A stretch of DNA of 64,000 nt from Thermodesulfobacteriota bacterium (GTDB lineage: Bacteria; Desulfobacterota; Desulfobacteria; Desulfobacterales; Desulfosudaceae): the NCBI GenBank assembly GCA_040753795.1, contig JBFMDX010000008.1, positions 124,001-188,000 of the forward strand. Direction: 5' to 3'. The position numbers and the translations under genes were made by a program. The notes under the pieces were generated by a model. That model saw nothing but the letters and a program-made list of their open reading frames with translations. It was not told the DNA's origin and did no database searches. Position 1 is the first letter of the stretch. Each line of letters starts with the position of its first letter. Of the stretch, positions 37,516 through 62,639 are shown in pieces.

Positions 37516-37534
37516 AACAGTACCAGGGTAAATC

Positions 37535-37582
37535 AACCCTCTCAATAAGGCGCTAATGGGTTCGAGGGTTCAATTCTTCTTT
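37535..37582 (+). terminator. Possible terminator after activator 1
   Basis: AACCCTC (37535-37541) pairs with GAGGGTT (37564-37570), followed by CAATTCTTCTTTTC. The loop is long (22 bases) and the tail is T-rich but interrupted. Confidence 0.3.
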
Positions 37583-37633
37583 TCAAACTAATCTGGAAAA
37601 GAACCAAACGTAAAACCATATAACCGGAAGCCG

Positions 37634-43576: not shown

Positions 43577-43592
43577 GGCACCAATCGTGCCA
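43577..43592 (-). promoter_or_regulatory. Sigma-54 (-24/-12) promoter of the acyl-CoA dehydrogenase
   Basis: Minus-strand TGGCACGATTGGTGCC: perfect -24 element, GG and GC separated by 10 bp. The site is nearly palindromic, so the plus strand also reads TGGCACCAATCGTGCC with the right spacing, but no plus-strand gene follows. It implies a 5' leader of about 120 bases. No adjacent activator gene. Confidence 0.7.
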
Positions 43593-46072: not shown

Positions 46073-48160
46073 ATGAATACCCGATTGAACGCTGAATTAC
46101 AGACAGACAAGAAAACGCTTCCTGATGAAGCTGATCTTCAGGAAGAGCTGAATGATATTTTCAGATCGATTTCAAGCCGGATTCCGGTCGATAAAATTCA
46201 TTGGGTTCAGACCCACTATGACCTGAAGATGATACGGATCATCGCCCAGGTTTCTGAAACGGGCGGCGAAAAAACCAATTTCATGTACGATGTCCCCGCC
46301 CAGATCGTGGAGTTTTTGAACAGCGACGCCCTGCCTGAAATCCACATCATGAATCAACCGGAAATCGATCCCGTCGGAAAAGAGGTCTCCCGGCGCGCCA
46401 AACTGTTTGACTGGTCGGCCATGTTCATCAATTTCCACAACCGCGCGGATACGTTATCCTCGGTAGCGATCTATGCGGACGGAAAAGACAGGTACAGGCC
46501 AGAGCATACCCGCCCGCTCATGTCTTTTGCGGCGCGTCTTAAAAAAATTACCGATATCCTCGTTACGGATAATGAAAAGAAAATCCCTGACCCCACCTTA
46601 AAAGAGCCGGTTGAAGACAAAAATGAATTTTTCCGCCAGGTCACCCTGCGATTATGCGGTAACCTTGATCTGGAAACCGGTGTCACCCAGTGCCTTCAAT
46701 ACCTCAGCCGTTTTCTGCCGGCTGATGGTTTAATCGTCAGACAGCTGGAACCGGAACTGCAGTCCGAGCGGGTTCTCGCGGAAAGCTTCGGCGTATTTCA
46801 TCAAAAGTCCGGGACCCTGATTCCCTTGCTAACCAGGGAACGCCATCCTGCTGACCGGCGGAGAACCCCGAGGCTGCGCATCATCAACCGGCCGGAACAG
46901 TCTGTCTCCATGCAGCCCTACACGCAGATGTTCGGCCATGAAATATCGTGTATCTCCATGCCCCTTATGCACCATAAAAAGGCCATCGGGGTAGCCGTAC
47001 TGGGGCTGGAAGGAAAGGACCGTTACCGGGAAGAACACATGCAGCTGTTCGGGCTGCTTCACGATCCCTTTGTCCTGGCCCTCTCAAACAATATCAAACA
47101 CCGTGAAATGATCCGGCTGAAGAACCTGATCGAAGAAGAGAAAAAGGACCTGGCCGAAGAACTGCACTACCATGCGGCGGATACGATCGTCGGCGGCAGC
47201 CTGGGCCTGGCGGGTGTCATGGAGCATGCCCGCCTGGTGGCCGATCAGGGCAGCCCGGTATTGCTGACCGGTGAAACCGGCGCCGGCAAGGAGATCATCG
47301 CCAATTTCATCCACCGCAATTCGTTACGCAAAAACGGTCCCTTCATCAAGGTCAACTGCGGTGCCATACCGGACACGCTGGTTGACAGCGAACTGTTCGG
47401 TCATGAAAAGGGGTCCTTCACCGGCGCGGACACCCGGAAAAAGGGACGCTTTGAAAGGGCCCACGGGGGGACGATCTTTCTGGATGAAATCGCGGAACTC
47501 CCTCTGCCGGTCCAGGTCCGCCTGCTCCGGGTGCTGCAGCACAGAGTGATCGAACGGGTCGGGGGAACAGCGCCCGTATCAGTGGATATCCGTGTCATTG
47601 CCGCCACCCACCGCGATCTTGAAGAGCTGGTCGCTGCCGGGAAGTTCCGGGAAGACCTGTGGTTTCGCCTGAATGTCTTCCCCATCCGGATTCCGCCGTT
47701 GCGGTCAAGGCGGTCGGATATCCCGGCCCTGGTGGATTATTTTATTGAAAAAAAGTCACTTGGCCTGAAGCTCCATACCAGGCCGTCCCTGTCTGCCGAT
47801 GCCATGGAACGGTTGGCCGCTTATGACTGGCCGGGCAATGTCCGCGAACTTGAAAATGTGGTTGAAAGAGAATTGATCCTCAGCGGGGGGGAGGCGCTGA
47901 CATTTGAGAATATCAACCCCCGACTGTCAGGCAACAAGTCTCCGGACAATACAATTTCAAAAAATAATGTTCTGGGGCTGGATGAATTTTTCGCCCGGCA
48001 CGTTAAAAAGATCCTGACCATGTGCAACGGAAAAATAAACGGTCCGGGCGGAGCAGCGGAACTGCTGAACATACAGCCCAACACGCTCCGGAACAGGATG
48101 AAAAAGCTCGGCATCCCGTACGGCCTGAAAAAGCGGAACCATTTGCGGAATAAACCATGA
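46073..48160 (+). CDS. Sigma-54-dependent transcriptional activator 3
   Basis: 695 residues. Same layout as activator 1: sensory region of the first type (ISSRIPVDKIHWVQTHYDLKM), GAF-like region beginning EDKNEFFRQVTLRLCGNLDL, coiled-coil, AAA+ domain with GETGAGKE and GGTIFLDEIAELP, Fis-type helix-turn-helix. The sigma-54 contact loop reads GSFTGA (~446) instead of GAFTGA as in the other four, a change in the most conserved element of the family. It is divergent from the enoyl-CoA hydratase operon and overlaps activator 4 by four bases, so 3 and 4 are coupled. Confidence 0.92.
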   Translation: MNTRLNAELQTDKKTLPDEADLQEELNDIFRSISSRIPVDKIHWVQTHYDLKMIRIIAQVSETGGEKTNFMYDVPAQIVEFLNSDALPEIHIMNQPEIDPVGKEVSRRAKLFDWSAMFINFHNRADTLSSVAIYADGKDRYRPEHTRPLMSFAARLKKITDILVTDNEKKIPDPTLKEPVEDKNEFFRQVTLRLCGNLDLETGVTQCLQYLSRFLPADGLIVRQLEPELQSERVLAESFGVFHQKSGTLIPLLTRERHPADRRRTPRLRIINRPEQSVSMQPYTQMFGHEISCISMPLMHHKKAIGVAVLGLEGKDRYREEHMQLFGLLHDPFVLALSNNIKHREMIRLKNLIEEEKKDLAEELHYHAADTIVGGSLGLAGVMEHARLVADQGSPVLLTGETGAGKEIIANFIHRNSLRKNGPFIKVNCGAIPDTLVDSELFGHEKGSFTGADTRKKGRFERAHGGTIFLDEIAELPLPVQVRLLRVLQHRVIERVGGTAPVSVDIRVIAATHRDLEELVAAGKFREDLWFRLNVFPIRIPPLRSRRSDIPALVDYFIEKKSLGLKLHTRPSLSADAMERLAAYDWPGNVRELENVVERELILSGGEALTFENINPRLSGNKSPDNTISKNNVLGLDEFFARHVKKILTMCNGKINGPGGAAELLNIQPNTLRNRMKKLGIPYGLKKRNHLRNKP

Positions 48161-50235
48161 GAAACGAAGCCGATACGGTTTTAAACCAGATCAAAGAACG
48201 TGCCGCTGAGCCAGAGGGAGATATCTACGAAGCGGTTTACGCGTATTACGATTATCTTCAAAACCATCTTCCCGCGGAACGGATGAGCCTGGCCCTGTTT
48301 GACCTTGGCCGGGAACACATGAGAATCATCGCCCAGGCCAGTGCAACGGGAGGCGAGAAAACGGATTTTATCGTTCCGGCGCCCGGCGACCTCCTGGCTG
48401 TCCTGCAATCGGAGGACATGCCCGCCATTTACATGATCAATGAACCGGAAACAGATCCGGTCGGGCTGAATATTATCGCGCGGTCCGGTTTCAAGGACTG
48501 GTCGCTGATCGGCATGCCCATCAAGGGACAGGCCGTCCGTTACGGCGCCATATTTTTTACGGTTACCGGCAAACACCGATATGCGGAAAAACATTCCGTT
48601 TTTCTCTCGGGTTTCTATGACGCGCACAAATGGCTTCTGAACGCTGTGGTCAGGGACCATGAGAACAGGCCCGGCGGCCTTGATCAGAAAGAGACGGTGG
48701 AAGACAAATATGAATTTTTCCGCCAGGTCACCCGGCGGTTATGCGGTCACCTTGACATGGAGGTCGGTGTCCGGCATTGCTTCCAATACCTCAGCCGGTT
48801 CTTTCCTGCTTCAATGCTGTCCGTCCACAAGCATCACCAGGAGGGCGATACGGATATTATTGGGGTCGGGCCGACCCATTTTTTCAACTACTTCGATCCC
48901 GGCATGATCGCCCGTGGCACGGAGAAACTCAGCCCCGCGGAAAAAACAGCCGCCCCCAGAACCGTGATCACCAATCGCCCGGAACGCGACCCCACCCTGA
49001 ACCGCACGGTAAAAACATTCGGGACCAACTGGTCGGCGATTACCATGTATCTTTCCCATAAGCGGATGCCGCTGGGCCTGGCCAACCTCGTCACGGAAGG
49101 CAGAGACGCTTTTTCCGAGGAGCAGAGGGCGCTGTTTTCCATGCTCCATGACCCGTTTTCCCTGGCCCTTTCAAACCATATCAAGCACCGGGAAGTCATC
49201 CGGCTGAAGAACATCATCGAAGACGAGAAGAAAAACCTTCAGGAGGAATTGCATTCCTCCAGGGAGACCACCATTATCGGCGGCACCACCGGCTTGAGAG
49301 GCGTCATGGCCAGTGCCCGGGTCGTGGCCGGCCGGGACAGCCCGGTATTGCTGACAGGGGAAACCGGTTCCGGCAAGGAAATCATCGCCAATTTCATCCA
49401 CCGGCAATCTTCGCGAAGAAACGGCCCTTTGATTAAAGTGAATTGCGGGGCCATTCCGGACACGCTGGTTGACAGCGAACTGTTCGGCCATGAAAAGGGG
49501 GCGTTTACCGGCGCGGACAGTCAGAATAAAGGACGCTTTGAAAGGGCCAACGGGGGGACGATTTTTCTGGATGAAGTCGCCGAGCTGCCCCTCCCGGCCC
49601 AGGTCCGCATGCTGCGGGTGCTGCAGAATAAACTCATCGAACGGGTGGGGGGCACGGAGCCCATTCCCGTGGATATCCGCATCATTGCCGCCACTCACCG
49701 CAACCTGGAGGAAATGGTCGCCGCCGGAAAATTCCGGGAAGACCTGTGGTTCCGGCTGAACGTCTTTCCCATCCACATCCCCCCTTTGAGAGTGAGGCGG
49801 TCGGACATCCCGGCCCTGGTGGATTATTTTGTTGAGAAGAAATCACGTGAAATGACGCTCCAGGTCAACCCCTCTCTGCCGGCCGAAGCCCTGGAACGGT
49901 TGATCTCCTATAGTTGGCCGGGCAATATCCGTGAACTGGAAAACGTCATTGAACGGGAACTGATCCTGAAAAAAGGCGGGACGCTCGCGTTTGAGCACAT
50001 CGTGCCCCGGCCGCCGGACGGTCATTCGCAAGATCAATCCGTTCCGGAAGAGGACGTTCTGGAAATGGACAAGGCCTTTGCCCGTCATATCAGAAACGTC
50101 CTGGCCCTTACTGAAGGCAAGATCAACGGCCCCGGCGGCGCCGCGGAACTGCTGAAGGTTAAACCCGGCACCCTCCGTCACCGCATGGACAAACTGGGAA
50201 TCTCCTATGGCTGGAAAACATCAAAGCGGTTTTAA
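48157..50235 (+). CDS. Sigma-54-dependent transcriptional activator 4
   Basis: 692 residues. Start ATG overlaps the stop of activator 3 (ATGA). N-terminal sensory region of the second type, as in activator 2 (YDYLQNHLPAERMSLALFDL; ETDPVGLNI), then GAF-like region from EDKYEFFRQVTRRLCGHLDM, coiled-coil, AAA+ with GETGSGKE, GAFTGA and GGTIFLDEVAELP, and a Fis-type helix-turn-helix ending LRHRMDKLGISYGW. The tight coupling with activator 3 suggests that the two types of activator work together, possibly as mixed hexamers sensing two inputs. Confidence 0.92.
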   Translation: MRNEADTVLNQIKERAAEPEGDIYEAVYAYYDYLQNHLPAERMSLALFDLGREHMRIIAQASATGGEKTDFIVPAPGDLLAVLQSEDMPAIYMINEPETDPVGLNIIARSGFKDWSLIGMPIKGQAVRYGAIFFTVTGKHRYAEKHSVFLSGFYDAHKWLLNAVVRDHENRPGGLDQKETVEDKYEFFRQVTRRLCGHLDMEVGVRHCFQYLSRFFPASMLSVHKHHQEGDTDIIGVGPTHFFNYFDPGMIARGTEKLSPAEKTAAPRTVITNRPERDPTLNRTVKTFGTNWSAITMYLSHKRMPLGLANLVTEGRDAFSEEQRALFSMLHDPFSLALSNHIKHREVIRLKNIIEDEKKNLQEELHSSRETTIIGGTTGLRGVMASARVVAGRDSPVLLTGETGSGKEIIANFIHRQSSRRNGPLIKVNCGAIPDTLVDSELFGHEKGAFTGADSQNKGRFERANGGTIFLDEVAELPLPAQVRMLRVLQNKLIERVGGTEPIPVDIRIIAATHRNLEEMVAAGKFREDLWFRLNVFPIHIPPLRVRRSDIPALVDYFVEKKSREMTLQVNPSLPAEALERLISYSWPGNIRELENVIERELILKKGGTLAFEHIVPRPPDGHSQDQSVPEEDVLEMDKAFARHIRNVLALTEGKINGPGGAAELLKVKPGTLRHRMDKLGISYGWKTSKRF

Positions 50236-51308: not shown

Positions 51309-53372
51309 CTATCGCTTCCAGCCATACGGAATGCCCAGTTTTTTCATTCTGCTGCGAAGCGTGTTGGGTTTTACGTTCAGCAGTTCGGCGGCGCCGCCCG
51401 GCCCCCCGACTTTACCATGGGAAAGGGCCAGGGCCTTTTTGATGTGCCGGATATTGACTTCATCCAGATCCGGGAAGCCGTCATCCTCGATGCCGCTTCC
51501 CGGAGTGTTGTCCGCAGCCGGCTGCTGGATGACATGCTGAAACGTCAGCGGCTTGCCCTTGCTCAGGATCAATTCCCTTTCGATGACGTTTTCCAGTTCC
51601 CGGACATTTCCCGGCCAGTCGTAAGCGGTCAATCTCTTCATGGCTCCCGGCGACAGGGACGGCTTTTCATAGAGATTCAACTCCCGGGATTTTTTTTCAA
51701 TGAAATGATCCACCAGGGCCGGTATATCCGATCGTCTGGCGCGCAGGGGGGGGATCCGCAAGGGAAACACATTCAAGCGGAACCACAGGTCTTCCCGGAA
51801 CCGGCCTTTGGCCACCATTTCCTCGAGGTTGCGGTGGGTGGCGGCGATGATGCGGATATCAACCGGTATGGTATCCATACCGCCGACCCGCTCAATCACT
51901 TTGTTCTGAAGCACCCGGAGCAGGCGGACCTGGACCTGCGGCGGCAGTTCCCCGATTTCGTCTAAAAAAATGGTGCCGCCGTTGGCCCTTTCAAACCGGC
52001 CTTTCTTCCGGCTGGCCGCGCCGGTGAACGCCCCCTTTTCATGGCCGAAAAGTTCACTGTCCACCAGTGTATCCGGGATGGCCCCGCAGTTGACCATGAT
52101 CAGGGGGCCGTCTTTGCGGGAAGAATTCCGGTGAATGAAATCGGCCACCACCTCCTTTCCCGCACCGGTTTCTCCGGTCAGCAGGACCGGGCTTTCCTGC
52201 GCGGCCACGAGGCGGGCGTTCTCAAGAACGCCTTTTAAGCCTGAGCCGGCACCGATAATCGTCTGGCTCCTTGTATCGCGTAATTCTTCCTGCAGGTCTT
52301 TTTTTTCAGATTCAATGATGTTCTTAAGGCGGATCACTTCACGGTGTTTGATATTGTTTGAAAGCGCCAGAACGAATGGGTCGTGGAGCATTTCGAAAAG
52401 CTTCATGTCCTCTTCTGTATAACGATTCCTGCCTTCCAGGCCCAGCACCGCGATGCCAATCCGGGTTTGTTTATGGATGAGGGGCATATAAATATAAGAC
52501 GTGTCATCTCCGAAAAAAGAAGAAAGGGTTTGCGCCAGAGGGTAGCGTTCGGGCTGATTGATAATGTGTGTTCTCAGAAGTTCTCCGCTTTCAATGAATG
52601 GTGAATCTTCAGTGATCATGGGGAGAAGGGTTTCTGACTTGGGGAAAAAAAAGCCGTAGCTTTCGGCCAGTCCGCGCTCGGAAAGCAATCCAGGCTCCGT
52701 CTGCCTGACATGGAGCCCGTCAGCGGGCAGAAACCGGCTGAGATATTGAAGGCAATGAGTTACGCCGGTCTGCAGGTCAAGATGGCCGCATAATCGCCGG
52801 GTGACCTGGCGGAAAAATTCGTTTTTGTCATCCACGGGTTCTTTTTGGGCCGGGTGCAGATTCTTCTTTTCGTGGTCCTTGATCAGGGTGTCTAAAACCA
52901 GTTGCAGAGGCTCTTTCACCGTAACTAGCCGGCGTGAATGTTCTTCGGTGAATTTGTCCTTTCCTTCCGCAATGATCATCACGGATGCATAAACACCGGC
53001 GGCGTTTTTAAAATTAATGATCAGGGATGAATGATCAACAGATTTGGCACGTTTCGACAGCTCGATACCGACGGGGTCTTTTTCGGGATCATTGACAATT
53101 TTTATGTCCGGGTTGGCCCCGCTGCAGATAAAGTCCATTACCTCTCTGGGGGTATCATACATGAAATTGGTGATTTCCCCGCCGGTATCCAGGGCCTGGG
53201 CGATAAACCGCACCAACTGAAAATCATAATGAAATTGGAGCCAGCCCATTTTCCATACCGGGGCGAATTTTGAAATAAAATGGAAAATATCAGACAACGC
53301 TCCCTGAAGATTGTTTTCATCGAAAATACGCTGCCTGACCTGATCCAGTAATTTATTCGGTTCGTTTTTCAT
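51309..53372 (-). CDS. Sigma-54-dependent transcriptional activator 5
   Basis: 687 residues from the ATG at 53372, chosen because it aligns with the start of activator 1 and has an AGGAA upstream; the frame remains open to a TTG at 53429 that falls inside the presumed operator. Sensory region of the first type (ISKFAPVWKMGWLQFHYDF), GAF-like region from DDKNEFFRQVTRRLCGHLDL, coiled-coil, AAA+ with GETGAGKE, GAFTGA and GGTIFLDEIGELP, Fis-type helix-turn-helix. Closest to activator 1. It is divergent from the large flavoprotein operon, whose sigma-54 promoter it most likely serves. Confidence 0.92.
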   Translation of the reverse strand: MKNEPNKLLDQVRQRIFDENNLQGALSDIFHFISKFAPVWKMGWLQFHYDFQLVRFIAQALDTGGEITNFMYDTPREVMDFICSGANPDIKIVNDPEKDPVGIELSKRAKSVDHSSLIINFKNAAGVYASVMIIAEGKDKFTEEHSRRLVTVKEPLQLVLDTLIKDHEKKNLHPAQKEPVDDKNEFFRQVTRRLCGHLDLQTGVTHCLQYLSRFLPADGLHVRQTEPGLLSERGLAESYGFFFPKSETLLPMITEDSPFIESGELLRTHIINQPERYPLAQTLSSFFGDDTSYIYMPLIHKQTRIGIAVLGLEGRNRYTEEDMKLFEMLHDPFVLALSNNIKHREVIRLKNIIESEKKDLQEELRDTRSQTIIGAGSGLKGVLENARLVAAQESPVLLTGETGAGKEVVADFIHRNSSRKDGPLIMVNCGAIPDTLVDSELFGHEKGAFTGAASRKKGRFERANGGTIFLDEIGELPPQVQVRLLRVLQNKVIERVGGMDTIPVDIRIIAATHRNLEEMVAKGRFREDLWFRLNVFPLRIPPLRARRSDIPALVDHFIEKKSRELNLYEKPSLSPGAMKRLTAYDWPGNVRELENVIERELILSKGKPLTFQHVIQQPAADNTPGSGIEDDGFPDLDEVNIRHIKKALALSHGKVGGPGGAAELLNVKPNTLRSRMKKLGIPYGWKR

Positions 53373-53410
53373 GTCTTGCGAGTTCCTGTCTATGCTTACC
53401 CTATATAATA

Positions 53411-53446
53411 GAAATACGATATTTCTCAACCTAGACTACGATATTT
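53411..53446. promoter_or_regulatory. Two repeats between activator 5 and the flavoprotein operon: candidate upstream activating sites
   Basis: TACGATATTT occurs at 53415-53424 and again at 53437-53446, exactly 22 bp apart. The first copy is inside a palindrome GAAATACGATATTTC (53411-53425). They lie 58-90 bp upstream of the -24 element at 53504, the same geometry as at the other sigma-54 modules. Confidence 0.6.
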
Positions 53447-53502
53447 AGAATCAAAAAACCAGTCAAAAACATAACTAATTGTTTTAATATTATTTATTCT
53501 TA

Positions 53503-53518
53503 TGGCATGGATAATGCT
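53503..53518 (+). promoter_or_regulatory. Sigma-54 (-24/-12) promoter of the flavoprotein operon
   Basis: TGGCATGGATAATGCT: -24 GG at 53504-53505, -12 GC at 53516-53517, 10 bp between. The predicted start of transcription (~53529) is about 34 bp before the first gene, which has a strong AAGGAGG ribosome site. Confidence 0.8.
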
Positions 53519-53562
53519 CAGGTGAGTATCATGTCGAAAAAACTCACAAAGGAGGACAAAAA

Positions 53563-53928
53563 ATGCCGTTGGAAGCTTCCGATTATTTCCGGATTACCCG
53601 CATGGCCTACACAACTGGCCTCATGCGGAAAATCATTTCCATTATGGAACAGGCGCTTGAGGCCGTGTTTCAGGAACTTGGGATCGGTCCTTATGAAATG
53701 TTCGATTGCCTGGACCAGTCCGACCCGGCCCCTCTGGAACAAACCCTGGGGCGCGCCAACCCCTTCCTGGTCCGGCTGGCAGCCAGGCCCGCGCTGATGA
53801 AGATGGCTGCCTTCGCGCTGGATCGGCCCATAATAAGGACCCGGGTGCTGGAATACGTTAAGTGCAGGTACCGCCTGTTTTTCGCGGACGCCATGAAAAA
53901 CGCGGCCCGGCCCGGGGAGGTGTCCTGA
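53563..53928 (+). CDS. First gene of the flavoprotein operon, unknown function
   Basis: 121 residues, start after AAAGGAGGACAAAAA. Mostly helical, soluble, no cysteine motif that would suggest a cluster; segments such as GLMRKIISIMEQALEAVFQEL and ALMKMAAFALDRPIIRTRVLEYVK are amphipathic. I do not recognise a family. Its stop overlaps the start of the next gene (TGATG), so it is translated together with the FAD-linked oxidase and may be a small subunit or assembly partner. Confidence 0.7.
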   Translation: MPLEASDYFRITRMAYTTGLMRKIISIMEQALEAVFQELGIGPYEMFDCLDQSDPAPLEQTLGRANPFLVRLAARPALMKMAAFALDRPIIRTRVLEYVKCRYRLFFADAMKNAARPGEVS

Positions 53929-55406
53929 TGAAAAATGGAATGCAAATCAAGACGGCTTTAAAGATTGCCGTAGGGCCGGATCGTTTTCATGAAAATCCGG
54001 ACAAACTTTCCGAATATGCCCATGGCGGCGCTTTTGTCGCCGGACAAACGCCCCTGTGCGCGGTCGAGCCCAAAACCACCGACCAGGTGGCCGCAGTTGT
54101 GCGGGCGGCGGTTGAAACCGGCGCCAACCTGATTCCGTGCTCCAGCGGTTCGCCCAGGTCTCAGAGGGGTTGCCGCGTTCCGGCGGACATTCCCTCGGTG
54201 GTCGTGGATATGGGCAAAATGGACCGCATCAACCGCATCAACCGCAGAAACAAGGTGGCCATCGTCGAGCCCGGGGTTCGTTTCGGGACCCTGCAGGCCG
54301 AGGCGAAAAAGCTGGGGATGAAAGCGCTCCTGCCGCTTCTGCCCCGGGCCTCCAAGTCCGTGGTGGCCGCCTATCTGGAAAGGGAACCCATCACCATACC
54401 CAAGTATCACTGGGACATGACCGACCCCATGCTGTGCGTGGAGACGATTTTCGGCACTGGTGACATGTTCCGCACCGGCGGCGCCGCCGGGCCCGGATCC
54501 CTTGAGGAACAGTGGAAATCAGGGGCCTCACAGAAAAATCCCATGGGGCCGGCCCAGACCGACCTGGTGCGCGTGATCCAGGGGGCCCAGGGCACCATGG
54601 GCATCGTCACCTGGTCCAGCGTCAAGCTTGAGGTTTTGCCCGCTATCCGCAAGGGGTATTTCGTCACCTCCCCGCGAATCGAGACCCTGATCGATCTGGC
54701 CTATGCCATGACCCAGCGTCGCCTGGGAGACGAGCTGTTTCTCTTAAATGCCCAGGCGATGGCCGGCATTCTCGAAAAAGACAAGGCTAAAATTGAAGGA
54801 TTGGCGAAAAAACTTCCGCCCTGGATCCTGTTTTATTGCGTCGCCGGTTACGAGATATTTCCGGAGCTGCGGGTCCGCCAGCAGGAGCGGGACATCGCGG
54901 CCCTGGCGAATAAACTGGACTTAAAAACGGTGCCCGATCTTAACGGCGCAAGAGGAGATTCCCTTGCCCGAATGCTTGATGAACCAAGCCCGGAGCCCTG
55001 GTGGAAAGACCGCCTCAAAGGGGCGCACGCGGAGGTCTTTTTCCTCACCACCATGGATGGCGTGCCCGTTTTCCTGGAAGCAATGGGCGAACTGGCGGAC
55101 GCCCACGGGTATCCTGCCGAGGACATGGGCGTATACGTTCAGCCGGTGCAGCAGGGCCGGAACTGCCATCTGGAGTTCATGCTTCCCTTTGATCCCAAAG
55201 ACGCCGACGACAAAAAACGCGCCCAGGATCTTTTTGACGAAGCAGGCAAAGTCATGTTTGAAAAAGGCGCTTTTTTCAGCCGGCCTTATGGCCCGTGGGC
55301 AGAATTGGCGTATTCCCGGTGTCCGGATACCGTCGCGGCCATCAAAACGGTCAAGGACATCCTCGATCCCCATCACGTCTTCAACCAGGGCAGGATCTGC
55401 CTGTAG
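53928..55406 (+). CDS. FAD-linked oxidase (GlcD/VAO superfamily), first copy
   Basis: 492 residues from the ATG at 53928, overlapping the previous stop; the open frame upstream lies inside that gene. FAD_binding_4-type domain: CAVEPKTTDQVAAVVRAAVE, LIPCSSGSPRSQRG (pyrophosphate loop), KVAIVEPGVRFGTLQ, then QGAQGTMGIVTWSSVKLEVLP. The C-terminal half is the substrate domain, ending ILDPHHVFNQGRICL, as in D-lactate/glycolate oxidase-like flavoproteins. It would oxidise a hydroxy acid or similar substrate and pass electrons to the CCG-domain Fe-S protein encoded next, or to ETF. Confidence 0.85.
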   Translation: MKNGMQIKTALKIAVGPDRFHENPDKLSEYAHGGAFVAGQTPLCAVEPKTTDQVAAVVRAAVETGANLIPCSSGSPRSQRGCRVPADIPSVVVDMGKMDRINRINRRNKVAIVEPGVRFGTLQAEAKKLGMKALLPLLPRASKSVVAAYLEREPITIPKYHWDMTDPMLCVETIFGTGDMFRTGGAAGPGSLEEQWKSGASQKNPMGPAQTDLVRVIQGAQGTMGIVTWSSVKLEVLPAIRKGYFVTSPRIETLIDLAYAMTQRRLGDELFLLNAQAMAGILEKDKAKIEGLAKKLPPWILFYCVAGYEIFPELRVRQQERDIAALANKLDLKTVPDLNGARGDSLARMLDEPSPEPWWKDRLKGAHAEVFFLTTMDGVPVFLEAMGELADAHGYPAEDMGVYVQPVQQGRNCHLEFMLPFDPKDADDKKRAQDLFDEAGKVMFEKGAFFSRPYGPWAELAYSRCPDTVAAIKTVKDILDPHHVFNQGRICL

Positions 55407-55416
55407 GAGGGTTATT

Positions 55417-56691
55417 ATGGCATTGGAAGCATATCGCCGGGACATGGAGGGCTGTTCGCGGTGCTCGTCATGCAAATGGGTGCCCATGAGCCAGATGAAA
55501 AGCCACCGGTTCTCTCAGGTCTGCCCGTCCATATCCCGCTACCATTTTCACAGTTTCGCCGGCAGCGGCAAGCTCATGCTGGGACTTTCGCTCCTGGACA
55601 ACAGAATAGAGATGAACGATTCCGTCGCGGACGTGGCTTACAAGTGCACGCTTTGCGGCGCCTGCGACGCCAACTGCAAGGTTTACCGCGACGACATCGA
55701 CATTGCCGAAGTGATCGAGGAGATCCGGGCGACGTGCGTGGAAAACGGCCAGTTTTTCGCCGAGCACCAGATGATGATCGATGACCTGAAACGGGAGAAC
55801 AATGTCTTCGGAGAACCCAAAAACGCCCGCGGCGATTGGGCTGAAGGGCTCGGCTTAAAGGACGCCAACGCGCAAAAGGTGGATGTCCTGTTTCACGCCG
55901 GGTGCCGGTTTTCTTATGACGAGGACCTGCTGGGCGTCATCCGGGGGGCGGCAACGCTGATCCGGGACGCGGGCGTTGACCTGGGGGTCGCGGGAAAAGC
56001 GGAATCCTGTTGCGGCGGCCGCGCCTTTGGCCTGGGCTTCCGGGGGGATGGCAAAAATTTTGCCGAGGACATGGCGGTCCGGGTGAAGTCTTCCGGCGCT
56101 AAAGTTCTCCTCACGCCCTGTGCCGACTGCTATGGCGCCTTCAAGTACGCCTATCGACGTATGGGCGTTGACCTGGGTGTTCAGGTCATGCACATCTCCG
56201 AGTATCTGAAGGCACTTGCGGCAAACGGAAAAATCAATTTCAAAAACAGGGTGGACAGAAAAATCACCTATCACGATCCCTGCCATCTCGGCCGGCGAAG
56301 CGAGCCTTATGCCGGGCCCTGGGAGGGCAACAAACTTCTGCGGCCGGCCTCGCGCAAACGCGACGGAAGAAAAGGGGTTTATGACGCCCCCCGCGATCTT
56401 CTTCGATCCATCCCGGGCATTCGGCTGGTGGAGATGGAACGCATCCGGGAGTATTCCTGGTGCTGCGGCGCCGGAGGCGGGGTGTGGGAAGCCGACCAGG
56501 AATTGTCCGATTTCGCGGCCAGGGAGCGAATCGAGGAAGCCCTGACAACCGGTGCGGATGCCCTGGCCACAAGCTGCCCGTGGTGTGAAAGAAATTTGCG
56601 CGATGCCGCCGAATCAATGGGTGCCGGGATTGAAGTATTAGACGTCACCGAGCTTGTGGCACGCTCGATAAAAGGGGAGGTAATATCATGA
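55417..56691 (+). CDS. Iron-sulfur protein with CCG domains (HdrD/GlcF-like)
   Basis: 424 residues from the ATG at 55417 after GTAGGAGGG; an open frame extends upstream inside the previous gene. The N-terminus has two [4Fe-4S] motifs: CSRCSSCKWVP with a later CPS, and CTLCGACDANCKV. Two CCG-type modules follow: ESCCGG with TPCADCYG, and DPCHLGR with WCCGAGGG and SCPWCERN. The arrangement matches HdrD, GlcF and LutA-type proteins that transfer electrons between flavoproteins and quinones, disulfides or ETF. It overlaps the next gene by four bases, so it belongs to a complex with the two FAD-linked oxidases. Confidence 0.9.
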   Translation: MALEAYRRDMEGCSRCSSCKWVPMSQMKSHRFSQVCPSISRYHFHSFAGSGKLMLGLSLLDNRIEMNDSVADVAYKCTLCGACDANCKVYRDDIDIAEVIEEIRATCVENGQFFAEHQMMIDDLKRENNVFGEPKNARGDWAEGLGLKDANAQKVDVLFHAGCRFSYDEDLLGVIRGAATLIRDAGVDLGVAGKAESCCGGRAFGLGFRGDGKNFAEDMAVRVKSSGAKVLLTPCADCYGAFKYAYRRMGVDLGVQVMHISEYLKALAANGKINFKNRVDRKITYHDPCHLGRRSEPYAGPWEGNKLLRPASRKRDGRKGVYDAPRDLLRSIPGIRLVEMERIREYSWCCGAGGGVWEADQELSDFAARERIEEALTTGADALATSCPWCERNLRDAAESMGAGIEVLDVTELVARSIKGEVIS

Positions 56692-58277
56692 CATTTCCGA
56701 TTTCTACAAAAACCATTCCGGACGAGGCGGTTTCCCGGTTCAGGGAGGCCCTGGGGGACGAGAATTTTTCCACGGACCCGGTCATTTGCGATGGTTACGC
56801 CATGCAGCCCTTTCACAAAACCGAACCGGGGTGCTGGATAAATCGGCCCCTGGCCGTGACTTTGCCGTCAAGCACTGAAGAAGTCCAGGCGATTGTCAAA
56901 ATCTGTATCCAACACGGACTTCGTTACAAAGCCCACAGCACCGGCTGGGGCGCCCACGGCGGGGCCGGTTATGACAACGTGGTGCAGATCGATCTACGGC
57001 GCATGAACAAGATATTGGAATGGGACGAAAAAAACCGCTACGTGGTGGTCGAACCATACGTCAACTGCGCCGAGATTCAGGCGGAAGCCATGAAGCGGGG
57101 CTTTAACATCCACATTCACGGCGCGGGCAGCGTTTGTTCACCCCTGGCCAACGCCACTTCCCACTGCGGCATGGGATGGTCGGGGATATCCACGTCAACC
57201 AGTTCACGTAATATTCTGGGGGTCGAGTGGGTCCTTCCTTCAGGCGAGGTCCTTAAACTGGGAACGTGCGGGTCAATCAGTGAATCAGCGGGGAGCCGCT
57301 GGTTTTCGGCCGACGGCCCCGGGCCGAGCATGAGAGGCATCATGCGCGGATGGGCCGGTGCGGACGGCGGCCTGGGGGTGTTCACCAAGATGTCCATGAA
57401 GCTCTTCCACTGGGCCGGGCCCAAAGAAACAGCGGTCAAAGGTCGCCTCCAGGATCTGGTCGTCGAGAAACCGGACAACTTCAGGATCACCTTATGTGCT
57501 TTCCCCGACGCCCGGAGCTATGCGGACGCGCTGTTTAAAGTAGGAGAAGCGGAGATCGGATTTTTACAGTGCAAAAATTCCGTTGCTCTAATGTTGGGCG
57601 CGATGATGCCGCGAATGTTGCGCAAGATTCACGCCTCGATGAACGTAAAAAAGATCCTGGACGCATGCAGGCACCAGTTCATGTTCACGATCGCTGCGAC
57701 CTCCGATCTGGATTACCAGTATCAGAGCCAGTGCCTTGAAAAGATTGTGGACGATCATGGCGGGATCGTCCTTGATGCTCCAGCCCCCTTACATTCTCTC
57801 ATGTACTGGAGTTTTGTCAGAGTGAGTTTGCCGCCTGTCGTATTCAGGATGGGGGGTAATTTCTTCTCGACATTTGGGGGAGACGAGGCCTTTGACAACT
57901 GCATGGAACAGGCCAGGATCGGTGAAGAGATAAAACGGCAGTTCATCGCCAGCAAAGCATGTTTTGATGACCTTGCTGATAACCCATGGGCCCTGATTTA
58001 TGAAAACGGACTTTTCGGCCATAGCGAGGAGTTGTGGTTCTATGATCACCGCGATCCTGAAATGGGCCGGCAGGTGGATGATTATGCCAAGGCATGTGCA
58101 GATGCCACCCTGGAGCATACGCTTGGCGGCGGCGGGTTCGCCTTTTTCAAGGGGGGAGAGGTGCATGATATTCTCGGGCCTGCCATGAGCAACTACCACA
58201 TCTGGCAGCGCAGAATAAAGAAAGCCCTGGACCCGAACGATCTGTCGGATTCCAAGTTTTATATTTCCTCTGATTAA
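56688..58277 (+). CDS. FAD-linked oxidase (GlcD/VAO superfamily), second copy
   Basis: 529 residues; ATG overlaps the previous stop (ATGA). FAD_binding_4 domain: AVTLPSSTEEVQAIVKICIQ, YKAHSTGWGAHGGAGYDN (FAD loop), YVVVEPYVNCAEIQAEA and GADGGLGVFTKMSMKLF. It is more distant from the first copy than a recent duplicate would be, with a longer substrate domain; the GlcD/VAO-type layout with NIHIHGAGSVCSPLAN recalls vanillyl-alcohol oxidase relatives. A covalent-FAD histidine cannot be assigned by eye. Two different FAD-linked oxidases around one Fe-S protein suggest either two substrates or a heteromeric dehydrogenase. Confidence 0.85.
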   Translation: MTFPISTKTIPDEAVSRFREALGDENFSTDPVICDGYAMQPFHKTEPGCWINRPLAVTLPSSTEEVQAIVKICIQHGLRYKAHSTGWGAHGGAGYDNVVQIDLRRMNKILEWDEKNRYVVVEPYVNCAEIQAEAMKRGFNIHIHGAGSVCSPLANATSHCGMGWSGISTSTSSRNILGVEWVLPSGEVLKLGTCGSISESAGSRWFSADGPGPSMRGIMRGWAGADGGLGVFTKMSMKLFHWAGPKETAVKGRLQDLVVEKPDNFRITLCAFPDARSYADALFKVGEAEIGFLQCKNSVALMLGAMMPRMLRKIHASMNVKKILDACRHQFMFTIAATSDLDYQYQSQCLEKIVDDHGGIVLDAPAPLHSLMYWSFVRVSLPPVVFRMGGNFFSTFGGDEAFDNCMEQARIGEEIKRQFIASKACFDDLADNPWALIYENGLFGHSEELWFYDHRDPEMGRQVDDYAKACADATLEHTLGGGGFAFFKGGEVHDILGPAMSNYHIWQRRIKKALDPNDLSDSKFYISSD

Positions 58278-58288
58278 AGGAGTGGATA

Positions 58289-59278
58289 ATGGTGTCACCC
58301 ATTTTGGTTTTGGCGGAAAGTTCAGGCGGGAAAGTTCTCGCGCTGTCCCTGGAGGCCCTGGCCATGGGCCGAAAGGCGGCCAGGGAAAGTGGCACATCCC
58401 TGGCCGTTCTGGTCTGTGGAAAAGGCGTTTTGACGGCGGCCAATGAGCTGCTTTGTTATGGCGCGGACAAGGTCCTGGCCGTGGACAATGATCTTCTGGC
58501 GGATCTTCATCCGGACCTCTTGTGCGCTGCGGTTTCACAGGCATGCGACATCATCAAGCCCGGGGCGCTTTTTATGGCCGAAACCCTGGCGGCCCTGGAC
58601 CTGGCCCCCAGGCTGGCCGCGCGCCTCAAGACCGGCTGCGCCTCGGACTGCGTGGACGTTAGCTTTTCCAGGGACACCGGCGGTTTTATCTTCACCAAGC
58701 CGGTTTATTCCGGGAACGTCATGGCCCAGTTTGCCCTCGCCGGGGAACCGGTCGTGGCCACCTTCCGGGCCCGGGCAGCAGAAGCCCCGGAGCCCGGGGC
58801 GATGTCGGGGCGGGTGGAAAACCTGGATGTCAGCCTGGTGCCCTCCCTGGCCCGTTACGAGGTGGTGGAAAAGGTTTCCATTGATGCCACCGGCGGCCCC
58901 AGGCTGGAAAGCGCGGACAAGATCGTTTCCGGCGGCCGGGGAATGGGCGGGCCGGAAGGGTTTGCCGTTCTGGCGGAACTGGCCAAAGCACTGGGCGGCG
59001 CCGTGGGCGCCAGCCGCCCGCCCTGTGACCTGGGATGGATTTCCCCGGTCCACCAGGTGGGCATCACCGGTGCTATCGTGGCCCCGTCCCTGTATATCGC
59101 GACCGGTATTTCCGGCTCCACCCAGCACGTGGCCGGCATGGCGGGCGCCAGGGTGATCGTCGCCATCAACAACAACCAGGACGCCAATATCTTCAAGATA
59201 GCGGATTTTGGAATCGTGGGGGACTGGGAGAAAATCGTTCCAGCCCTTACCCGGGCGGCCGCGGAAATCGCAGGATAG
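58289..59278 (+). CDS. etfA: Electron transfer flavoprotein alpha subunit
   Basis: 329 residues. The C-terminal FAD domain is canonical: VSGGRGMGGPEGF, ASRPPCDLGWISPVHQVGITG (in parts), YIATGISGSTQHVAGM and VIVAINNNQDANIF. The N-terminal domain is shorter in recognisable motifs (ETLAALDLAPRLAARL). The usual Arg in the ASRxxVDxGW motif is kept, but the motif has PPCDLGW. Start ATG after AAAGGAGTGG. It is followed 30 bp later by etfB; the alpha-beta order is reversed from the more frequent etfBA order. Confidence 0.92.
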   Translation: MVSPILVLAESSGGKVLALSLEALAMGRKAARESGTSLAVLVCGKGVLTAANELLCYGADKVLAVDNDLLADLHPDLLCAAVSQACDIIKPGALFMAETLAALDLAPRLAARLKTGCASDCVDVSFSRDTGGFIFTKPVYSGNVMAQFALAGEPVVATFRARAAEAPEPGAMSGRVENLDVSLVPSLARYEVVEKVSIDATGGPRLESADKIVSGGRGMGGPEGFAVLAELAKALGGAVGASRPPCDLGWISPVHQVGITGAIVAPSLYIATGISGSTQHVAGMAGARVIVAINNNQDANIFKIADFGIVGDWEKIVPALTRAAAEIAG

Positions 59279-59307
59279 TCACGACAAGACAAAAGGAGTC
59301 AACCCCC

Positions 59308-60108
59308 ATGCATATCGTCGTTTGTATGAAGCAGGTGCCGGATCCGGAAAGCCCCCCCGAATCTTTTGCCATCGACCAGGAGACCCTGCGCGTGGAGCCC
59401 CGGGGTATCCCGCCGGTCATGTCCCTGTTTGATGAAAACGCCCTGGAGGCGGCCCTGAAGATGAAGGACGCTGACAAGGACGGGACCAGAATCACGGTGC
59501 TCTCCGCCGGAAAACGGGTGCCGGACGCGGTCATGCTCAAATCCCTGGCCGCCGGTGCGGACGCGCTTGCCAAAATCGAGGGGCCTGACCTTGACCATAT
59601 GGCCTTGAACGCCCGGGGCACGGCCCATGTCCTGGCCAGAGCCATCGAAAAAATCGGGGACGCCGATCTGATCCTGGCCGGCCGCCAGGCCGCGGATTCC
59701 AACGCCGGGCAGGTGGGAGCGGAGATCGCCGCGGCCCTGGACTTTCCCCTAATCACCATGGCCCGTAAGATTACGCCGGACAGCGGTTCGATCCTGGTGG
59801 AGCGGGTCCTGGCGGACGGGTATGAAGTCGTCAAGGCGCCCCTGCCCTGCGTGGTGGTGGTCTCCAACGAGGTGGGGGAACTCCGGTACCCGGCCATGAA
59901 GGAAAGAAGAGAGGCCAAAAAAAAGCCCGTCTCCTCAACCGGGCCCGGGGACGTAGGCGCGGAGCGGATCCCGGAAGCCGGGGCCGGCCTCAAGGGCCTG
60001 GAATATCCGGCGGCCAGAGAACGCCGGTGCGAAATGATCCCGGGTGATGATCCCGCCCGGGCGGCGAAAACCCTTATGAAAAAATTAAAGGAATCGGGCC
60101 TTTTCTGA
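59308..60108 (+). CDS. etfB: Electron transfer flavoprotein beta subunit
   Basis: 266 residues from the ATG after AAAGGAGTCAACCCCC. CMKQVPDPESPP at the N-terminus, SLFDENALEAALKMKD, AGRQAADSNAGQVGAEIAAAL and YEVVKAPLPCVVVVSNE are typical. Whether it carries a second FAD for electron bifurcation (marked by differences in the NAD/FAD loop DxxxGQxG) cannot be decided by eye. With EtfA it forms the heterodimer that would accept electrons from the FAD-linked oxidases or from the acyl-CoA dehydrogenase at 42 kb. Confidence 0.92.
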   Translation: MHIVVCMKQVPDPESPPESFAIDQETLRVEPRGIPPVMSLFDENALEAALKMKDADKDGTRITVLSAGKRVPDAVMLKSLAAGADALAKIEGPDLDHMALNARGTAHVLARAIEKIGDADLILAGRQAADSNAGQVGAEIAAALDFPLITMARKITPDSGSILVERVLADGYEVVKAPLPCVVVVSNEVGELRYPAMKERREAKKKPVSSTGPGDVGAERIPEAGAGLKGLEYPAARERRCEMIPGDDPARAAKTLMKKLKESGLF

Positions 60109-60134
60109 ATAAAGGGGAATAAGAGGAAACGGCT

Positions 60135-60575
60135 GTGAATTACTTCAAAAGCATCGGATACGATCCGAACTGGAGAAGTTGGAAAAAGTGCTTTTTCCGG
60201 CTGCATTTCGCTCTATCCTTGATCAGCATGGCAGCCTTTGGATATCTGATCATGGCCCCGTTAATCGTTGAAGGGCCGCTTTCCGTACTTCGGGATATGT
60301 TGATTGCGCTCATGTTCAAACAATCCCATTTCGCATGGGCCAACGGGACTTTTTTTATCGTTGCGATTCTTTATCTGATCTATACCTTAATCAACCTGCT
60401 CCCCCTTGGCAAAAGATGGGCGAATTATCGTTTTCTCGCTGATGCAGCGACGCTTCTCGCTGTGTTTTATGCCAATCACAACTCATATCAGCTCGTACTG
60501 GTACTGCTTCCTGTTTTACCCTGGTACCTGATCCATCGCGTGGCCGGTTCACAATTGATCAGGAGGATTGAATAA
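60135..60575 (+). CDS. Small integral membrane protein, unknown function
   Basis: 146 residues, GTG start after AAGAGGAAACGGCT. Four predicted membrane helices (LSLISMAAFGYLIMAPLIV; FFIVAILYLIYTLINLLPL; ADAATLLAVFYAN; LVLVLLPVLPWYLI). A positively charged N-terminus (NWRSWKKCFFRL) and C-terminus (HRVAGSQLIRRIE) suggest both ends are cytoplasmic. I do not recognise a family. It may anchor the following ferredoxin/flavoprotein pair to quinone, but there is no clear heme-ligand pattern. It ends right before the ferredoxin start. Confidence 0.7.
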   Translation: MNYFKSIGYDPNWRSWKKCFFRLHFALSLISMAAFGYLIMAPLIVEGPLSVLRDMLIALMFKQSHFAWANGTFFIVAILYLIYTLINLLPLGKRWANYRFLADAATLLAVFYANHNSYQLVLVLLPVLPWYLIHRVAGSQLIRRIE

Positions 60576-60818
60576 ATGACGATTCAGAAATTTAATCAGA
60601 ATAAATGTACCGGTTGCGGCGCCTGCGTGGAATACTGCACCAGAGACGTGTGGAGAATGAACCCGGAAACCGGGAAAGCCCATGTCGCATACCCGGAGGA
60701 TTGCCAGTCCTGCTATACATGTGAAATTAACTGCCCGGAATTTGCCATCTGGGTGCATCCCTTCCGCTATGCACCGAAAATGTGGCCGTGCGACATGGAA
60801 TATGAAGATGCCTTCTAA
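60576..60818 (+). CDS. Dicluster ferredoxin, AprB-like
   Basis: 80 residues. Two cluster motifs: CTGCGACVEYC and CQSCYTCEINCP, for two [4Fe-4S] clusters. The C-terminal FAIWVHPFRYAPKMWPCD resembles the tail of APS reductase beta subunit, which interacts with its flavoprotein partner. It starts immediately after the previous stop and lies 12 bp before the Tat flavoprotein. It has no signal peptide of its own, so if it partners with the exported flavoprotein it would have to be co-exported. Confidence 0.85.
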   Translation: MTIQKFNQNKCTGCGACVEYCTRDVWRMNPETGKAHVAYPEDCQSCYTCEINCPEFAIWVHPFRYAPKMWPCDMEYEDAF

Positions 60819-60830
60819 CGGGAGTTTACC

Positions 60831-62639
60831 ATGAATCGTATTTCAAGAAGAGACATGTTGAAATTCATGGGAATGACAGGCGCCGCGGCCTTGGCACCTT
60901 ATCCCATAAGACATGCCCATGCGGCCAAGCGGCCTGTGCCGACGGTAAATATTTTGAAATCCTACCCGTATGAAGACCGGGAAGTTTTTGAGGCGGACCT
61001 GGTTATCGTGGGCACCGGGCTCGGTGGTTTATGGGCGGCGGTTACCGCGGCGGAAGAAGGCATTAAACGGATCGCCATTGTTGACAAAGGCGGGCTGGGC
61101 GTTTCTTCAGGTTCCGGCATGATTCTCGCGGGTACAATTTACTGGCTGGAAGGAGACGACCTTGCTGCCTGTGAGAAAGAATACCTGAGATACAGCGGCG
61201 GTCTCGGTCACCCGGACATGCTCCGGGACATGATGCAGACCTCCCGCAGGCGGATGGAAAAATGGAAAAAGTGGGGCGTTACCTATGAAGGGCTTCCGGT
61301 GCTTGGAATTCGAATACCGACCGATGGAAACCGCTACAACAAATTGAGCATAAATCCGCGCTATAAAGGCTGGGCCTGCGGGCGGGCACTGGTGCAGTGC
61401 CTGCTGGACAGGATTGATGCCCAGGGCGTGTCCACGTATTTTTCAAAAACAATGATCACCGATTTACTGGTGGAAAACGGCCGGATAAACGGCGCCGTGG
61501 GTTTGAACCGGCTGAACGGAAACCGGATCGTTTTCAAGGCGCCGTCCGTCATACTGGCCACGGGCTCCTGCACATTCGGGCCGGGGTATAACGTCAGCGC
61601 TCATCAAACCGGCGACGGATACGCATTGGCCTACCGCGCGGGCAGCAAACTGCAGAATCTCGAATTTTTGAACCCGGATGTTCTGGCGCGGGATTATAAC
61701 CTTGAGGGCGGTCACCTGACCGGCATGTTCGGCGCCCGGTTCATCAATAAACACGGAAAAGATTTTATGTGGGATTATGATCCCAACAACGGCACGAATT
61801 CAAACTTCAATACCATTGCTTTTGCCTTTGCCGATGAATGGGCCAGGGGGAACGCCCCTGTTTACCTGGACCAGACCACTGTCGTGTACAAATATATCGT
61901 CTCCAGAATATTTGAAAACTTAAGCCCCCTGAACACCTGGCAGGCGCTTAACTACAGGCGGCTGAGGGAAACCGGGAACGCGCCCACAGACTATCCGCAC
62001 AACCAGATTGTTTTATATTACGGACTGCAGGGATGCATCCGGACCGACAACGACCTGATGAGTGATGAAATTGACGGGTTGTTTGCCGCCAGCCTCAGTC
62101 AGTCTTTTGATATGAGCACCATCAAAGGAATATCATCCGCCCGCGGCATGTGGTCCGGAGAAAAAACAGGCCGGACAGCCACCCGGTATGCCAGGGGGGC
62201 GGACATGCCGGTATTGCACAGGGACCAGGTGGAGAATGCGCTTGAACGTTCCATACAATATATGAAACGGGGAAGCGGTCTTACCTACTGGCCGTTAATA
62301 AAAAAATTCCAGGATATTCTGCACAAACCAGAAATCGGCCTGCGAAAAACCGCCGAAAGCCTTGAACATGGATTAAAACAACTCACAGAATTTAAAGAGA
62401 ATGATCTCCCGGCCCTTAAAGCAGGAGATTCGCATGAATTGGTAAAAGCCCATGAACTGGAGAATATGGTTCTGGTCGCCGAGTTGTTTCTGAAGTCATC
62501 CATCATCCGGACAGAAAGCAGATATTCCCACAGAAGAATGGAATATCCTTTGCCGGATAATGAAAACTGGCTGAAATTCATCAACTGGCAAATCAACAAG
62601 GATAATGAAGCCGTGTTGAATTTTGAAAAACAAGCCTGA
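60831..62639 (+). CDS. Tat-exported FAD-dependent oxidoreductase of the fumarate reductase/APS reductase type
   Basis: 602 residues. A twin-arginine signal (SRRDMLKFMGMTGAAAL) starts the protein. The FAD domain follows: DLVIVGTGLGGLWAAVTAAEEG, DKGGLGVSSGSGM, and a later VILATGSCTFGPGY. The C-terminal helical part contains RTESRYSHRRMEYPLPDNENW, matching the SdhA/FrdA signature (TESRGxHxRxDYP). The catalytic Arg and His of fumarate reductases cannot be placed with certainty. With the ferredoxin gene before it this looks like a periplasmic or Tat-exported reductase/dehydrogenase acting on an unsaturated acid or similar compound. Last gene of the operon. Confidence 0.88.
   Translation: MNRISRRDMLKFMGMTGAAALAPYPIRHAHAAKRPVPTVNILKSYPYEDREVFEADLVIVGTGLGGLWAAVTAAEEGIKRIAIVDKGGLGVSSGSGMILAGTIYWLEGDDLAACEKEYLRYSGGLGHPDMLRDMMQTSRRRMEKWKKWGVTYEGLPVLGIRIPTDGNRYNKLSINPRYKGWACGRALVQCLLDRIDAQGVSTYFSKTMITDLLVENGRINGAVGLNRLNGNRIVFKAPSVILATGSCTFGPGYNVSAHQTGDGYALAYRAGSKLQNLEFLNPDVLARDYNLEGGHLTGMFGARFINKHGKDFMWDYDPNNGTNSNFNTIAFAFADEWARGNAPVYLDQTTVVYKYIVSRIFENLSPLNTWQALNYRRLRETGNAPTDYPHNQIVLYYGLQGCIRTDNDLMSDEIDGLFAASLSQSFDMSTIKGISSARGMWSGEKTGRTATRYARGADMPVLHRDQVENALERSIQYMKRGSGLTYWPLIKKFQDILHKPEIGLRKTAESLEHGLKQLTEFKENDLPALKAGDSHELVKAHELENMVLVAELFLKSSIIRTESRYSHRRMEYPLPDNENWLKFINWQINKDNEAVLNFEKQA

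Follow-up and report, generated by a model that had tools for sequence, protein, structure and literature searches.

The locus described here lies in a 64,000-nucleotide stretch (the window) of contig JBFMDX010000008.1, positions 124,001 to 188,000 of assembly GCA_040753795.1, from a Thermodesulfobacteriota bacterium of the family Desulfosudaceae. An intergenic stretch of 190 bases separates the ATG of activator 5, a predicted sigma-54 activator, at 53372 on the minus strand from the ATG of the first of nine rightward genes at 53563 on the plus strand. A sequence-only reading of the window had proposed a leftward activator 5, a sigma-54 promoter at 53503 and two repeats 22 bp apart at 53415 and 53437, and each of these was located where it had been placed. 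The features of the activator gene and the intergenic stretch, in window positions, are as follows.

51309-53372, minus strand: activator 5, a 687-residue one-component sigma-54 activator with two GAF-like domains, an AAA+ domain with GAFTGA and a Fis-like C-terminal end
53396-53411, plus strand: predicted upstream activator site, unit 1, TTACCCTATATAATAG, starting 107 bp before the promoter
53410-53426, no strand assigned: 17-bp inverted repeat AGAAATA-CGA-TATTTCT, probably incidental
53414-53429, plus strand: predicted upstream activator site, unit 2, at -89, holding TACGATATTT at 53415-53424
53436-53451, plus strand: predicted upstream activator site, unit 3, at -67, holding TACGATATTT at 53437-53446
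53503-53518, plus strand: predicted sigma-54 -24/-12 promoter, TGGCATGGATAATGCT, with the correct GG-to-GC spacing
53528-53529, plus strand: expected transcription start, some 12 nt downstream of the -12 GC
53550-53555, plus strand: ribosome-binding site AGGAGG, preceding the first gene

To judge these features against chance, we used first-order Markov resamples as controls. An operon-facing promoter-like site scoring at least 21.5 was found in 0/1000 resamples of this intergenic region, and a site scoring at least 22 on either strand in 0.1% of them. By our ad hoc consensus score, the site ties for rank 3 among all window positions on both strands, and the exact 16-mer TGGCATGGATAATGCT has a single occurrence in the genome. 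The consensus score alone is no proof of a promoter, because the whole window holds five sites scoring at least 22 where 2.05 are expected. The genome carries one copy of rpoN (PF04552 match, E 4.8e-61). One IHF-like match, with one mismatch, was found between the enhancer and the promoter, and terminator-like matches numbered 23 against 14.9 +/- 3.1 expected.

The AAA+ domain of activator 5 matched Sigma54_activat (PF00158, E 7.2e-70), and GAFTGA is present in the translation. A structural model of the N-terminus, built from an alignment of five window paralogues, predicted two GAF-like folds (mean pLDDT 81.3, pTM 0.82), and its best Foldseek matches in the PDB were GAF-containing phosphodiesterases, a cyclase and phytochromes. 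Whole-chain TM-scores were 0.31-0.41 and root-mean-square deviations 12-24 A among the matches listed; because the former are low and the latter large, the folds are supported but not how the two domains are arranged. The C-terminal end is conserved across 13 aligned paralogues, and some NCBIfam activator models reach residue 681. Activator 5 has 32 matches in its own genome, eight of them over the full length: seven at C8:159446-197579, of which five are within the window, and one on contig C2. At 1e-10, the N-terminal half found matches in 91 of the 291 genomes searched in the order, themselves a sample from a larger group; the first GAF region was covered only in this genome (G000), G002 and G079 among the matches listed. 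A search of a plasmid collection gave no match, and a further search for close relatives returned seven loci at just 22-27% identity, useless for promoter comparison.

The two copies of TACGATATTT are exactly 22 bp apart. An exact 10-mer repeat at exactly that distance arose in 0.07% of resamples; the repeat alone is nevertheless only suggestive, because a 10-mer repeat at any spacing arose in 5.6%. The sequence-only reading had counted two upstream sites. Both repeats do stand at the positions typical of the activator family, -89 and -67, but the count was wrong: a third unit at 53396-53411 had been missed. We replaced the two-unit version with three units when a matrix trained without this locus gave unit 1 as its best match in the locus, at the same offset of -107 as in two related loci, W33 and L084. 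In a positional test with centres of -107, -88 and -66 taken from other loci only, each +/-2 bp, 2/5000 resamples reached the summed score at the three positions, as did 2/5000 at a tolerance of 3. An earlier version of the test, with slot centres chosen after viewing the activator-5 locus, gave p 0.015 for the repeat pair by itself and 2/3000 for the three slots together, and 0/374 AT-rich control stretches from the window attained the three-unit sum. The inverted repeat had been reported as a 15-bp palindrome around the first repeat; it is present, is 17 bp long and is probably due to chance. It constitutes no evidence, because 14% of resamples hold an equally good one (arms of at least 7, loop of up to 8), and as an operator it was rejected on this ground and for its centre, which is displaced by about 3.5 bp from the dyad centre of the family's palindromic units.

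To place the locus among its relatives, we aligned 13 activators, eight from G000, three from G002 and two from G079. They form a type I group (A1, A3, A5, A6, H1, K1), an A8/H3 pair and a type II group (A2, A4, A7 and K2, with H2 nearby). A -24/-12-like site scoring at least 21.5 and facing away from the activator gene was present at all eight type-I/A8-like activators (A1, A3, A5, A6, A8, H1, H3, K1) in three genomes: at window positions 35306, 45947 and 53503, and once each in L084, L085, L086, L087 and L088. The limit of 21.5 was chosen after the scores were seen; for each of the eight intergenic regions, 0-11 of 1000 resamples hold such a site. The count leaves aside A2, A4, A7, K2 and H2, each in tandem behind another activator, as well as W33, which sits behind a target gene rather than beside an activator and contributes to the matrix, and W43, where the site does not adjoin an activator. 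W43 is a good -24/-12-like site at 43592 on the minus strand, between genes for a DctP-type binding protein and an acyl-CoA dehydrogenase; a scan for family enhancer units there gave no significant ones.

For all eight activators, the promoter is preceded by two or three related 16-bp elements in tandem, for example TTTCCGTATTTGGCAA or the palindromic TTGTCATATATGACAA. In all seven loci in which both of the last two units were placed (W35, W45, W33, L084, L085, L087, L088), these are spaced 21-23 bp apart, and in six of the seven they start at -87 to -90 and -65 to -68. W33, L084 and L087 have an additional unit, which starts at -107 in the first two and at -116 in the last. At W35, the locus of the nearest paralogue, the units start at -89, -72 and -50, with the spacings of 17 and 22 bp kept; at L086 a short stretch was scanned and one of three units placed. 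With a leave-one-out matrix, the best match reached p <=0.003 in six of the eight loci used as sources of units, or seven counting W35 at 0.003 (W35, W45, W33, L085, L086, L087, L088), and p 0.05 in L084. Among the genes behind these promoters are those for lipase-like hydrolases, AAT-type acyltransferases/hydrolases and an enoyl-CoA hydratase, as well as a carboxylesterase gene with a lipase-chaperone gene after it. Collectively, these comparisons show that, as a sequence pattern, the activator gene, the predicted tandem enhancer units and the predicted sigma-54 promoter recur as one block beside different catabolic operons. Our literature search returned nothing on sigma54 in Desulfococcus oleovorans and no use of the phrase 'tandem paralogs', from which we make no wider claim that such blocks are unpublished.

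Further predicted sigma-54 promoters with tandem-unit enhancers of this family were seen on the minus strand at window positions 35306, 45947 and 33117, at L084 7307 and at L085 6210; four of these five adjoin other paralogous activators, and all face lipid- or acyl-CoA-related genes. A second activator gene follows directly behind five of the six type-I genes, A5 being the exception. Type-I/type-II tandem pairs occupy 35431-39691 and 46073-50235 in the window and 7332-11589 in L084, and activator 5 is unpartnered.

We also searched for the block's components genome-wide. The promoter signature GGCAYGNNNNATGCT had seven matches in the genome against none in the reversed control, four in the window and the others at C6:200385, L096 and L101. 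At C6:200385 there is a family enhancer pair at -89/-67, TTCCGTATTTGGTAA and TTCCCTATTTGGCAA, 22 bp apart; L096 and L101 showed no units by eye. Three exact copies of TTCCNTATTTGGYAA are present in the genome, the two at C6:200385 and one in W45, and only exact matches are informative, because allowing one mismatch gives 8 against 5 in the control. The C6 site (L095/L118, G000:C6 around 200295-200400) combines a pair of the activator-3 kind and a promoter before a 375-residue open reading frame (ORF) that looks secreted by eye and has no Pfam match; it is a probable trans target on another contig. A dyad pattern of the GG/GA type, with one mismatch allowed, found seven sites in G000, G002 and G079 against none in the reversed control; four were already known, and the rest were the C6 site, L117 and L120. 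At L117 (G002:C1:1356267), which shows the same enhancer-promoter layout, TGGCACGATTAATGCC stands 66 bp downstream of the second unit's start, ahead of a gene that appears carboxylesterase-like by eye; the three activator genes of this type detected in G002 are all a long way from L117. L120 was rejected as an enhancer site, being a chance match without a promoter-like site.

Activators 5 and 1 are sister branches (support 0.999), activator 1 being the closest paralogue at 70% identity. At one position of the recognition helix, which we take to be Fis position 90 with a role in DNA contact, the residue is S in A5, T in A1 and N in the six other type-I/A8-like proteins; outside these it is H or K in type II and N in H2. 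The six N-type activators are flanked by 16 units, 15 of which have GG or GA at positions 12-13, compared with 0/3 at A1 (AA) and 0/3 at A5 (AA, CT, AG). A search for trans targets of activator 5 gave one exact and four two-mismatch matches to the repeat pair against four in the reversed control, none credible. Most simply, activator 5 would have a private enhancer, with this operon as its main target, and the change of both helix residue and enhancer core on the branch of activators 1 and 5 is probably what restricts activator 5 to the operon.

Together, these results suggest that the intergenic region is very likely a sigma-54 control module in which activator 5 acts via the three units to drive the nine-gene operon. 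The divergent module put forward by the sequence-only reading is thus supported by the AAA+ GAFTGA domain, the GAF-type N-terminus, the one rpoN, the -24/-12 site and the paralogue-like tandem sites, as far as sequence can support it. Several results weigh against this assignment. TGGCATGGATAATGCT has two mismatches to the sigma-54 consensus, which we take to be TGGCACGNNNNTTGCW. When position is disregarded, the best matrix match at the locus is marginal (p 0.053) and the second best has p 0.167; units 2 and 3 fit the family matrix poorly (0.6 and -1.5 bits), and the score of the repeat positions alone was reached by 81/5000 resamples (p 0.016, tolerance 2) or 135/5000 (tolerance 3). TACGATATTT has ten matches in the genome against two in the control, eight of them further single copies, and the dyad pattern misses the activator-5 locus along with those of activators 1 and 3. 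The family units were chosen by eye, and the absolute position of the units is not fixed, because those of W35 lie about 18 bp nearer the promoter. Pfam gave no helix-turn-helix family at the activator-5 C-terminus, and genome searches gave no close orthologue of the locus for footprinting. As for specificity, the distal unit of L084 is the sole one beside an N-type activator without a GG/GA core, and the correlation of helix and core counts as one event, because it is seen in one sister branch only. What makes the module convincing is the layout shared with the paralogous loci, not the repeat or the score alone.

A rather unlikely alternative is that the promoter is sigma-54 dependent and part of a shared regulon, activated also or mainly by activator 1 or by a type-II partner (activators 2/4/7). 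The close kinship of activators 1 and 5, the tandem type-I/type-II pairs elsewhere, which suggest partners, and the better fit of unit 1 (-107) than of units 2 and 3 to the general family matrix are in keeping with such sharing. However, the activator-5 units differ from the activator-1 units, which have a TTCAAC core, and each kind clusters solely at its own locus: TTCCNNATTCAAC has nine genome matches against none in the control, three clustered at activator 1 and six single, and the exact activator-5 repeat pair is unique in the genome. It is very improbable that the sites serve mainly for autorepression of activator 5, with the operon expressed near-constitutively from an ordinary sigma-70 promoter. 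The units are indeed no more than 80 bp from the start codon of activator 5, and unit 3 is overlapped by a weak sigma-70-like match on the minus strand (TTGACT-17-TATCGT, 53466-53438), but sigma-70-like matches in the region are near chance (10 vs 7.0 +/- 2.4 expected), the -24/-12-like site faces away from the activator in 8/8 loci, and autorepression is compatible with activation. That the repeats and the promoter-like site arose by chance in AT-rich DNA is scarcely credible: the rates given above for a 10-mer repeat at any spacing, for an inverted repeat as good and for promoter-like matches (about 2 expected per window, 5 observed) would allow it, but the joint layout is common to the paralogous loci, and C6:200385 and L117 were found away from activators by one feature and then showed the other, against an opposing tally of L120, which missed, and of L096 and L101, promoter-pattern matches without units.

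Under the favoured assignment to activator 5, the protein would sense a small molecule through its two N-terminal GAF-like domains and would bind the three tandem sites at -107, -89 and -67 from the -24/-12 promoter, as the shared layout suggests. Its AAA+ ATPase action would then open the promoter-bound sigma-54 RNA polymerase, with transcription starting near 53528. The nine genes would be transcribed together, as the gaps of at most 29 bp suggest, and we infer that they are induced as a unit by the activator-5 signal.

The nine genes run rightward over 53563-62639, separated by gaps of no more than 29 bp or overlapping, and end 19 bp before a convergent ORF. The nine-gene count of the sequence-only reading holds, with eight larger ORFs and the 80-residue ferredoxin-like ORF at 60576-60818. 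All are on the plus strand.

53563-53928, plus strand: gene 1, orphan protein of 121 residues, no family match
53928-55406, plus strand: gene 2, FAD_binding_4 flavoprotein of 492 residues with FAD-oxidase_C (just over the cut-off)
55417-56691, plus strand: gene 3, GlcF/HdrD-like protein of 424 residues with Fer4_8 and two CCG cysteine-rich domains
56688-58277, plus strand: gene 4, FAD_binding_4 flavoprotein of 529 residues resembling the VAO/PCMH type
58289-59278, plus strand: gene 5, electron transfer flavoprotein (ETF) alpha subunit
59308-60108, plus strand: gene 6, ETF beta subunit
60135-60575, plus strand: gene 7, hydrophobic protein of 146 residues, probably a membrane protein by eye, no family match
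60576-60818, plus strand: gene 8, protein of 80 residues with 4Fe-4S ferredoxin domains
60831-62639, plus strand: gene 9, fumarate-reductase/SdhA-like flavoprotein of 602 residues with a Tat-type signal

The product of gene 1 had no match in Pfam, NCBIfam or PHROGs and none at E 0.001 in 145 other genomes, and it gave no BLAST match to the proteins of about 230 residues upstream of the FAD/iron-sulfur (Fe-S)/FAD trio in G015. The Pfam TAT_signal match of gene 9 is slightly under the cut-off; the flavoprotein is probably exported. For gene 4 and its relatives, the matches are to VAO/PCMH-type flavoproteins as well as glycolate/lactate dehydrogenases, chiefly in the FAD domain. Matches to gene 4 at 1e-40 were present in 10 of 146 genomes, its own included, and its Fe-S and FAD neighbours recur in the examined loci; EtfAB lies alongside the trio in G015:C43 and G124:C75, most loci having been viewed with short flanks. 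In a tree of 15 sequences, gene 4 of the window groups with the G015 and G124 copies (0.94); a longer type, to which a second copy of its own genome on contig C1 belongs, is separate. Genes 2-4 probably encode a GlcDEF-like, ETF-linked dehydrogenase of the wider BzS1/'Magic'-type family described below, an assignment supported by their architecture, and the operon probably serves to oxidise a catabolic substrate and hand the electrons to ETF.

The second trio of this genome (L093, G000:C1:350000-369000) has the order Fe-S / FAD / longer FAD protein; the last is 571 residues long with an alignment-based start and is followed by genes with DUF748 and ferredoxin domains. In G015:C43 (L089), the trio lies near methylmalonyl-CoA-mutase-like, B12-binding, MeaB, EtfAB and TetR-type genes, a neighbourhood that hints at a carbon-skeleton-rearranging pathway.

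It is possible, though doubtful, that duplication of the whole block, and its reuse for different catabolic operons, has produced near-orthogonal sigma-54 switches, their specificity reset by a few helix residues and the enhancer core, and that activator 5 senses the substrate of a 'Magic'-like flavoprotein complex. If so, the effector of activator 5 would reveal the target of this enzyme family in organisms other than benzene degraders. If activator 5 does drive the operon, a defined activator/enhancer pair would control a gene set whose core enzymes share their layout with a proposed anaerobic benzene-activating flavoprotein. The activator-5 signal would offer a direct route to one non-benzene function of the flavoprotein family, and the set of paralogues would be a small natural experiment in the avoidance of cross-talk between duplicated sigma-54 activators.

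The closest known enzymes are described in two 2026 papers (PMC13416013, PMC13101534), whose available portions report a highly abundant heterotrimer with the order FAD / Fe-S / FAD in benzene-degrading anaerobes. The BzS1_12970/80/90 flavoprotein was proposed for anaerobic benzene activation, and syntenic homologues 23-42% identical to it occur in two organisms unable to use benzene, for which other functions were suggested (PMC13416013). Genes 2-4 have the gene order of the BzS1 flavoprotein and of 'Magic' proteins #24-26 of ORM2a (PMC13101534), and their domain layout matches that of BzS1 as compared by description, not by sequence (PMC13416013). The first two subunits are of similar size (54.1 and 46.8 kDa here, 54.5 and 46.5 kDa in BzS1), whereas the last is smaller here (58.5 vs 65.8 kDa; PMC13416013). 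Unlike the BzS1/'Magic' loci as portrayed in those portions, the operon contains EtfAB, and no beta-oxidation or CoA-transferase genes were recognised among its nine genes. The regulator here is a sigma-54 activator, compared with a TetR nearby in BzS1 (PMC13416013), and the Fe-S subunit has four cysteine motifs, of which two are incomplete in ORM2a #25 (PMC13101534). A link of genes 2-4 to benzene is not supported by the architecture. The glycolate oxidase GlcDEF of E. coli likewise combines two FAD_binding_4-type subunits with a CCG Fe-S subunit; the matches here to the GlcD, GlcE and GlcF models are far below the cut-offs.

On the regulatory side, EtpR of Aromatoleum aromaticum EbN1, which by the available text responds to p-ethylphenol / p-hydroxyacetophenone, belongs to another organism and has another sensor than activator 5 (PMC4630880). 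The catalogue of one-component sigma-54 activators with neighbouring target operons in Desulfovibrio vulgaris Hildenborough is closer: in its available portions, some activators have GAF sensors and all but one have Fis-type DNA-binding ends, the largest share of promoters lies within 100 nt of the nearest activator site, and several activator genes adjoin their sigma-54 promoters (PMC4641369). Several paralogues within about 38 kb, with one enhancer layout and diverged cores, are found here, and none such were found in those portions (PMC4641369). The control system at the activator-5 locus is a further case of a known type, and what is of interest is the duplicated, diverging control block together with the enzyme family beside it.
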